Below are positions 12,136-40,018 of a DNA stretch of 64,000 bases, in pieces. The position numbers and the translations under genes were made by a program. How positions within the stretch are numbered: position 1 is the first letter of the stretch; each line of letters starts with the position of its first letter. The notes beneath the pieces are model-generated. The model made no database searches. It had not been told where the DNA came from and worked only from the letters and a program-made list of their open reading frames with translations. The stretch is from Anaerolineae bacterium (GTDB lineage Bacteria > Chloroflexota > Anaerolineae > Aggregatilineales > Phototrophicaceae), in assembly GCA_017303635.1 (NCBI GenBank), contig JAFLCG010000001.1, positions 1 through 64,000 on the forward strand, given 5' to 3'.

Positions 12136-13677
12136 ATGGCGCACATCTTCATCAGCTACAGCAAGAAAAATCGTGACTACGCCTATCAACTCGCCGACTA
12201 TCTGGAAGCCAATGGCTTCCCCATCTGGATTGACCGTGCCGATATTGAGTACGGCGTGGACTGGTGGGATGCCATCGTGGAGGGCTTGCGAGTCTGTGGA
12301 GCCTTCATCGTCATCATGACCCCGGAGTCGAAAGCCTCGCAATGGGTCAAGCGGGAGGTCTTCCTCGCTGAACAGCAGCGCAAGTCGACCTTCCCGATTC
12401 TACTGAATGGCGACAATTGGGAATTGTTCGTATTGACGCAGTACGCCGACCTGCGGAACGGAGCTATGCCGGGTGCCGAGTTCCTCCAGCGACTGAGCCA
12501 GCATGTGACGCCGCGCCGAAAAGGAGAAGCTACTGTTCCGCCGCCCTTGCCCATTGTCACTCCTGCCGCGCCCACACCTGTTGAAGTCAGCTTTGATGTG
12601 GATGAAGCCATCATCGCTTTTAATGTTGCTTACCGGGCAAAACAATGGTCGGAGGCCTTAAACCTGCTGGGGCGCATTCGCGCCTCCCGGCAAGACCCAT
12701 CACCCTTTGACCCGGATGATGCCGAACGCCGGGTACAGACCATCATTGAAGACGAAAAGCGGCGGCGCGAGCGAGAAGCCTGGGAAGGGGAACGCGCCAA
12801 ACGCTACCGCCGGGTGCAGGCCACCGAGCAGATGGGGGACTCCGCCGCGACCTGGGCGGCATTGCAACGTTTTTGGCAAGACTTCCCGGAGTACGACCCG
12901 GAGCATATAGCCGAGCAAGTGCGCCCCAAACCCAGCCGACCCAGCAGCCTATCCATTCTCCGTCAGGGATTGCTCAGCTTCGACTGGATCGCCATCCCCG
13001 GCAAGGGATACAGCATCGCCAAATACCCGCTGACTAACGCGCAGTTCAAATTGTTTATGGATGCGAGGGGGTATCAGAACCAGCAATGGTGGACGGCGGC
13101 AGGTTGGGAAGCACGCGCACGAGGGTGGGTGTATGACGGCGGTTGGAAAGAAACGGGAAATGCCTGGGTTCAACCACGCTCCTGGACAGATGCCAAATGG
13201 AACGGCGCGGAACAACCGGTCGTGGGGGTGTCGTGGTACGAAGCGGTAGCGTATTGCCTGTGGTTGAGCGACTTGACGGGTGAACAGATTATGCTGCCGA
13301 CCGAAGACCAGTGGCAGTACGCCGCGCAGGGGGAGGACGGCAGGCAGTACCCCTGGGGGAATGACTGGGACTGCAAAAAGTGCAATAATTCAGTCAAACC
13401 GTGCAACAATGATCGCACGACCTCGGTACGGCAGTATGAGGGTAAGGGCGATAGCCCTTTCGGGGTAGTGGATATGGCGGGCAACGTATGGGAATGGTGC
13501 CTGACAGATTATGAGGATCGCACCAATGACATTCACAGCGCTGCTAACAAGCGCGGGCTGCGGGGCGGTTCATGGCTCAACCTCAATACCGATCTCTTCC
13601 GCTGTGGCGTCCGTGTCAGGAGTACCCCTCATGGCAGGGATGACGACGGGGGGTTCCGTCTTGCACTCTCTTCATAA
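12136..13677 (+). CDS. TIR domain - FGE/C-type-lectin protein, predicted DGR target
   Basis: 513 residues. Residues 1-125 are a TIR domain (FISYSKKNRDYAYQLADYLE; IWIDRADIEYG; IVIMTPES) with Glu74 in QWVKRE at the usual NADase glutamate position. A charged linker (about 150-270) follows, then an FGE-sulfatase (SUMF1) domain from about 275: YPLTNAQFKLFM, PVVGVSWYEAVAYCLWLS, LPTEDQWQYAAQG, YPWGN, FGVVDMAGNVWEWC. The end R476-GGSW...GGFR-S513 has the pattern of a DGR variable region. Signalling by NAD+ cleavage upon ligand recognition by the lectin-fold domain is a plausible role. The true sulfatase-activating cysteines are not conserved, so it is not an FGE enzyme. Confidence 0.9.
   Translation: MAHIFISYSKKNRDYAYQLADYLEANGFPIWIDRADIEYGVDWWDAIVEGLRVCGAFIVIMTPESKASQWVKREVFLAEQQRKSTFPILLNGDNWELFVLTQYADLRNGAMPGAEFLQRLSQHVTPRRKGEATVPPPLPIVTPAAPTPVEVSFDVDEAIIAFNVAYRAKQWSEALNLLGRIRASRQDPSPFDPDDAERRVQTIIEDEKRRREREAWEGERAKRYRRVQATEQMGDSAATWAALQRFWQDFPEYDPEHIAEQVRPKPSRPSSLSILRQGLLSFDWIAIPGKGYSIAKYPLTNAQFKLFMDARGYQNQQWWTAAGWEARARGWVYDGGWKETGNAWVQPRSWTDAKWNGAEQPVVGVSWYEAVAYCLWLSDLTGEQIMLPTEDQWQYAAQGEDGRQYPWGNDWDCKKCNNSVKPCNNDRTTSVRQYEGKGDSPFGVVDMAGNVWEWCLTDYEDRTNDIHSAANKRGLRGGSWLNLNTDLFRCGVRVRSTPHGRDDDGGFRLALSS
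13561..13674 (+). other. Candidate DGR variable repeat (VR)
   Basis: Codons 481-504 are dominated by NNC/NNT codons (CTC, GTC, TTC, GGC, GAC, GAT, CAT) set among invariant R, T and P codons, as expected when AAC/AAT codons of a template repeat are randomised at adenines. The flanks GGSW and GGFR are the usual borders of FGE-type targets, and the stop codon follows eight bases-plus-codons later, as in known targets. No reverse transcriptase or template repeat is visible in the window. Confidence 0.6.
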
Positions 13678-13712
13678 GGTTCTGATATTCTGATTCCTGG
13701 TCTTCTGTATTT

Positions 13713-13795
13713 TAGGACTTACGCAATCACGGGCGGATTAGGCGTCTTCGCCGTATATCCGCCCCTACGAAATTCGGCGTTTTGCGTAAGCCCTA
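13713..13795. mobile_element. MITE-like element with 14-nt terminal inverted repeats
   Basis: TAGGACTTACGCAA (13713-13726) and TTGCGTAAGCCCTA (13782-13795) are inverted repeats with one mismatch. Between them lies a GC-rich palindrome (GGGCGGAT...ATCCGCCC). The 83-nt unit has no ORF and sits 35 nt downstream of the TIR-FGE gene. The GGACTTACGCA type of end is familiar from small elements in other bacterial genomes; an autonomous parent is not in the window. Confidence 0.65.
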
Positions 13796-39862: not shown

Positions 39863-40018
39863 AAACGCGGGAGTGCGCTATCGCCTGCGGTCTGAGGAAT
39901 ACATTCACACCGAAGAGAAAGATTTTACTGCAGAGAAGCAGAGGTACAGAGTCTCAGAGGTGGTTTATAACCGCCAAATCTTTCAGATCGAGAAACAGGG
40001 TTTCGGTTGTATGGATAC

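Follow-up and report, generated by a model that had tools for sequence, protein, structure and literature searches.

A TIR-FGE gene in an Anaerolineae genome bears a DGR-type variable region for which the assembly holds no matching retroelement

The window (the whole stretch of 64,000 nucleotides analyzed here) encodes a TIR-FGE protein whose gene is probably a genuine, variable region (VR)-bearing target of a diversity-generating retroelement (DGR), now orphaned and frozen as the product of past diversification. We favor this reading because the matching template repeat (TR) and reverse transcriptase (RT) are absent from the assembly, and because the only DGR found in the genome, on contig C34, is of a different target class and has lost most of its RT. 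It is based on what the sequences document directly, namely the domain architecture, the A-specific signature of the VR, local DGRs at homologues, and a truncated RT together with a mismatched TR in the own genome. The features of the locus are:

12136-13677, plus strand: TIR-FGE gene (513 aa), a putative sensor/effector and DGR-type target protein, from the open reading frame list, Pfam and homologues
12145-12465, plus strand: TIR domain, residues 4-110, a putative effector (Pfam TIR_2, 2.8e-23)
13003-13665, plus strand: FGE-sulfatase / C-type-lectin-fold domain, residues 290-510, a putative ligand-binding sensor (Pfam, 1.6e-43)
13561-13668, plus strand: VR, consisting of RGGSW, 25 variable-zone codons (13576-13650) and GFRLAL
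13651-13677, plus strand: 3' end of the VR, reading GFRLALSS-stop, the expected position of the homing-initiation site (IMH) from by-eye comparison of VR and TR 3' ends
13680-13709, plus strand: TCTG heptad array (TTCTGATATTCTGATTCCTGGTCTTCTGTA) immediately following the stop codon, 4 units with 7-8 nt spacing, a candidate DGR-associated cis element
13715-13793, no strand assigned: MITE-like element with inverted ends GGACTTACGCAA / TTGCGTAAGCCC, between TA dinucleotides and inside the heptad array

An earlier note, made from the letters alone, had described the product as a fusion of TIR and FGE domains, and Pfam confirmed this with its TIR_2 and FGE-sulfatase models, the latter extending through residue 510 and thus placing the VR within the FGE-type fold. 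The TIR domain also matched the ThsB and SAVED-TIR models of PADLOC, and no ThsA partner or cyclase was identified for the gene. In a structure model of modest to moderate confidence (overall pLDDT 68), Foldseek matched the N-terminal part to the TIR structures of SARM1, BtTir, AbTir and SPARTA, and the best matches of the C-terminal part were FGE-fold sulfoxide/selenoxide synthases; the part between the two Pfam domains was mostly helical, with low-confidence gaps. A Glu in the SQWVKREV segment of the TIR domain may resemble the catalytic Glu of SARM1. The VR, which contains a single Cys, presumably corresponds to the region of the catalytic cysteine pair in FGE enzymes. Solved relatives of the FGE domain include FGE, EgtB and the Treponema denticola DGR variable protein TvpA (2y3c), the last of these through a phmmer match. 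Full-length homologues of the protein are 63% (G059), 61% (G008) and 45% (G030) identical.

Codons 476-513 read RGGSW LNLNTDLFRCGVRVRSTPHGRDDDG GFRLALSS, with the last 38 codons at 13561-13674 and the stop codon ending at 13677. As the earlier note had it, this segment runs from RGGSW through mostly C/T-ending codons to GFR: 22 of the 25 codons between the two motifs are NNY, compared to a fraction of 0.505 in the remaining gene (binomial P = 1e-4), and the three exceptions are AGG, AGG and GGG. The count is the joint maximum among all 25-codon windows of the gene, and those tying with it all overlap the VR. When conditioned on the encoded amino acid, the NNY excess was weaker (13 of 16 informative codons versus 8.8 expected, P = 0.02), which lends some support to the alternative that this is an ordinary FGE-fold protein whose loop residues are under positive selection, with codon bias as the source of its NNY endings. 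We nevertheless regard this alternative as highly improbable: five paralogous FGE genes in this genome (L005, L010, L013, L019 and L020) lack the pattern, some homologues are borne on DGR cassettes, and it is mostly refuted already by the family comparison of VR and body and by the adenine test described below. The decisive evidence for the VR is comparative, and not the single-gene NNY count.

As the reference for the adenine test, we used a congeneric TR of the same type as the window VR (RGGSWNNNNTDNFRCDYRNRNNPHNRNNNRGFRLALPC; G012, contig C48), which is located 3' of an RT fragment that the contig end cuts off. At codon positions 1 and 2, the window VR was changed relative to this template at 18 of 32 adenines versus 1 of 18 non-adenine sites (P = 3e-4). 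Third positions differed in 8 of 25 codons, all eight being C<->T differences, whereas in the gene body C<->T accounts for only 28% of the differences at third positions (P = 4e-5 for a VR with C<->T differences alone). Both results speak against codon bias. The A-specific variation that the earlier note had proposed to look for was hence assessed against a template from another genome of the same genus, and the differences were adenine-biased, the gene carrying near its 3' end a VR whose changes at codon positions 1 and 2 fall at template adenines with one exception. None of the 13 window codons at AAY-derived columns ends in a purine (0/13), and the AGG columns read AGG, AGG and GGG.

The family comparison covered 13 homologues with the same 25-codon VR type. 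At their AAY-derived columns the third base is nearly always a pyrimidine, and each column keeps its particular C or T; their AGG columns encode mostly R, G or W. Amino-acid identity of the family members to the window protein is 20-44% in the VR, compared to 52-76% in the preceding ~180 codons. In G030 (two loci) and G044, both genomes of the same family, a TIR-FGE or FGE homologue, a DGR RT and a TR follow one another directly, and at most intact loci scanned TR and VR differ by 0-2 non-A mismatches. Most cassette homologues end in GFRLARS or GFRLSRS; the window gene ends in GFRLALSS, and the G012 TR reads GFRLALPC. Given the adenine-restricted changes relative to the G012 TR, the C<->T third positions and the presence of homologues in complete DGR cassettes, the C-terminal segment of the window gene was very probably written by a DGR, in line with the DGR-type variable C-terminus that had been proposed from the sequence, which the adenine contrast and the cassettes of G030 and G044 support.

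The assembly of the own genome, G000, comprises 6.8 Mb in 39 contigs and is 96.3% complete. A search with RVT_1 (E <= 0.001) returned no RT. By itself this test was misleading, as it overlooked a truncated DGR RT detected by a clade profile that we built from the DGR RTs of 14 relatives. The sole match to this profile, C34:384763-385137, covers columns 240-364 of 365; the DGR-clade RT of this genome is a fragment, with no intact copy among the contigs searched. The A-degenerate VR pattern (<=3 mismatches) matched only itself, revealing no exact TR, and the TR-type patterns returned the C34 TR alone, which is of another type, so that no TR in the assembly matches the window VR at non-adenine sites. 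The earlier note had seen neither RT nor TR in the 64 kb, consistent with these genome-wide searches, which place the sole RT fragment and TR on C34. It had also suggested searching the genome for a DGR-clade RT, which is present as that fragment, and for a near-identical, AAC/AAT-rich template, of which none fits.

Two generic patterns were set aside. The TR start pattern gave nine matches, of which only a fragment on C37 (L024/L192) is known to be FGE-like, and it overlooks the C34 TR because the latter begins SFDNN; the TR tail pattern gave 14 matches in total versus 16 in the control, with an FGE frame at the C34 TR only. The C37 fragment (L024 1501-1617, minus strand; C37:73490-73606) encodes only the C-terminal part of an FGE protein, contains AAC/AAT codons and lies shortly downstream of the TIR-FGE gene L011. 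It was rejected as the TR of L011, since several of its non-adenine positions, compared by eye, differ from those of L011; these mismatches suggest the relic of a VR instead.

The C34 locus (L195) is the only DGR locus found in the assembly, and contains one TR (SFDNNQNNAAAAYRNNNNPNNRNNNYGFRLVLGAH), two STAND-FGE targets (EAD8-TIR-nSTAND1-FGE and nSTAND1-FGE), a bAvd gene (PF22296) and the RT fragment. The Avd gene is intact beside the RT fragment, and none is found at the window gene. Compared with the intact G077 locus, ~707 bp are missing between the end of avd and the YVDD region of the RT, a deletion that removes the N-terminal two thirds, including the start and the greater part of the catalytic region. 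The TR (SFDNNQNNAAAAYRNNNNP...) differs in fixed residues from what the window VR requires (SWNNNNTDNFRCDYRNRNNPHN...) and lacks its fixed residues TDxFRCDYR; the best-fitting TRs for the window gene are all in relatives. Judged by these differences, the C34 DGR is not one that serves the window gene, and the earlier proposal of a remote target of a DGR elsewhere in the genome could not be upheld, the sole DGR having a truncated RT and an unfitting TR.

The C34 system itself looks long inactive, because its TR is mismatched at 6-11 of 89 non-adenine sites to the VRs of its targets and to that of L017, a remote paralogue. A comparison of L017 with L022 indicates that it did act in this lineage in the past, since third positions differ at 116 of 213 codons in the body versus 1 of 24 in the VR, where first positions differ in 14 of 24 codons and second positions in 9 of 24. 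RT remnants that keep the C-terminal part and have lost the N-terminal part were observed at C34 (L195 8728-9216, plus strand) and in G033 (L213), G049 (L214), G096 (L216) and G015 (L220), with an open frame from about YVDD onward in G000 and G033; this pattern could reflect chance, the ends of contigs or the retention of a thumb-domain protein. G000 further contains ~22 FGE genes, including TIR-FGE and STAND-FGE (nSTAND1-FGE) fusions, and these numerous paralogues are dispersed across the genome, several of them with VR-like C-termini and at least three template types between them.

Among 98 family genomes, 13 gave a DGR RT match at E <= 1e-25 (nine near-full-length and four fragments, the own genome included), and an intact RT of this clade is kept in 9 of the 98. 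TRs of the window type were found with 0 mismatches only in G012, G018, G030 and G044, each of which also has a DGR RT, and with 2 mismatches in two further matches, in G067 and G096. The orphan state is common in the family. G059, G052, G016 and the single-contig G043 have no RT of this clade, and none of the 13 codons at the AAY columns of their VRs ends in a purine; in G008 and G004 two of these codons do, perhaps as early decay. The orphan state may be due to loss of the RT, to gene transfer that left the DGR behind, to contigs missing from the assemblies, or to other cells carrying intact variants.

Gene transfer would mean that the window gene arrived already diversified and without its DGR, and that the present lineage never diversified it. 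This is a version of the frozen-product reading in which only the place of diversification is different. The patchy distribution of homologues across the order, with most carriers lacking an intact RT of this clade, and the numerous FGE paralogues dispersed over the genome are consistent with such a history. We consider it unlikely, however, since the TR type occurs in the same genus and the genome had a DGR of its own, now broken, which renders local diversification followed by loss simple as well. A viral donor was rejected: two scans of viral contigs returned no TR of the window type and only two related RTs, and the FGE relatives found there were <=38% identical.

Alternatively, a complete DGR of the right type, located in the unassembled 4%, on a plasmid or in population variants, might still diversify the gene in trans. 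A matching RT and TR could be missing because the assembly is incomplete and the DGR cassettes of relatives often reside on very short contigs (3-10 kb), and the congener G012 carries the right TR next to the 3' end of an RT that lies at the edge of a contig. The VR is also pristine in its 0/13 purine-ending codons, and since it shows no visible decay, it may have been diversified recently or may still be so on occasion. In Thiohalocapsa PB-PSB1, trans activity has been documented and intact and broken DGR variants coexist among cells (PMC10907252). Against this stand the 39-contig assembly without a matching RT or TR, the single-contig G043, which likewise has no RT of this clade yet carries the same kind of VR, and the scanned viral contigs; taken together, we judge an active remote target to be quite unlikely. 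An orphaned, frozen gene accordingly remains our preferred reading.

Directly 3' of the gene, the TCTG heptad array resumes at ~13798 (CTTCTGATTCTGG) after the MITE-like element, which has related partial copies at three other genome sites. Similar arrays were found 3' of the own-genome targets L004, L011, L018 and L022 and of targets in several intact cassettes. They also occur 3' of DGR-type FGE targets at L195 5358-5382 and 9302-9326, L197 5704-5735 and L198 4359-4403 (all minus strand), as well as in Chlorobiaceae, Methylococcaceae, Planctomycetota and Thermoflexus loci. In a set of 107 FGE genes drawn from many phyla, an array was present in 27 of 61 genes with high, 5 of 19 with intermediate and 1 of 27 with low NNY content (P = 1e-4, for loci that are not independent samples and an array definition set after some loci had been seen), and never in three control stretches. 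Octamer arrays of CTCTGNNN (CTCTG) form a separate class, with one copy in the window (39931-39958, minus strand) and ~40 other places across the genome. We rejected the view that heptad arrays are exclusive to DGRs, since G000 also contains many octamer arrays and a few heptad arrays unconnected with the FGE genes examined. A limited literature search returned no description of the heptad array. We propose it as a candidate cis element of DGR target sites, its function remaining a candidate one given the non-independent loci, the post hoc definition and the CTCTG octamers elsewhere.

Mechanistically, mutagenic retrohoming from a TR of the type RGGSWNNNNTDNFRCDYRNRNNPHNRNNNRGFRLAL would have randomised the adenine-derived codons (AAC/AAT to NNY, AGG to NGG) and, in the past, fixed the binding face at the VR, the putative tip of an FGE (C-type-lectin-type) sensor in a TIR-effector protein. 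The FGE domain would now act as a fixed sensor whose tip might bind a ligand, for instance a phage or non-self molecule, and would thereby activate the TIR domain, probably an NAD-consuming or signal-making effector. We infer ligand sensing and TIR signalling from family knowledge and from published proposals that DGR-diversified proteins are conflict proteins (PMC10907252, PMC7159879).

The A-specific comparison with a congeneric template thus points to an immune-type TIR sensor that was hypermutated by a DGR, in a genome that no longer appears to encode a working one. As a tentative and possibly incorrect generalization, the DGRs of this family may be transient diversifiers that write variable immune-type sensors and then decay through RT truncation and TR loss, so that a standing repertoire of receptors, once randomised and now fixed, stays behind, with targets sharing the 3' TCTG heptad array as a cis element conserved across several phyla. 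If frozen repertoires are common, RT-centred surveys will overlook target genes, and the fate of randomised receptors after loss of the retroelement becomes testable. The heptad array, if functional, would offer a handle to detect DGR targets without an RT or TR and to study target recognition.

As a DGR target, the protein belongs to a known kind, and the orphan state and the heptad array are its interesting parts. The closest parallel is offered by the DGRs of the multicellular bacterium Thiohalocapsa PB-PSB1 (PMC10907252), which likewise diversify C-type-lectin/FGE sensors joined to STAND or effector modules, TIR, nSTAND1 and EAD8 among them. They also comprise degenerate loci whose RT is missing or a pseudogene, decayed loci with MITE-like elements, and trans or remote targets. 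In contrast to that system, the window protein is a two-module TIR-FGE fusion without a STAND ATPase in a Chloroflexota-type genome, and whereas each DGR class of PB-PSB1 keeps one complete locus, the present assembly contains no intact RT or fitting TR. A published set of DGRs with dispersed remote paralogues similarly places a C-terminal CLec VR on varied N-terminal domains, TIR-like ones included, but its remote variable proteins are tied to a TR of the same genome, compared to the sole, unfitting TR here. By sequence match, the window protein shares the FGE-type C-type-lectin fold and the C-terminal VR with TvpA (PDB 2y3c) and other FGE-fold DGR variable proteins, and differs from TvpA in its fused TIR domain. 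Finally, its TIR domain is related to the ThsB and SAVED-TIR models and to bacterial NADase TIR structures, as in Thoeris-type and other anti-phage TIR effectors, and the putative sensing module here, unlike that of Thoeris-type effectors, is an FGE domain on the same chain.
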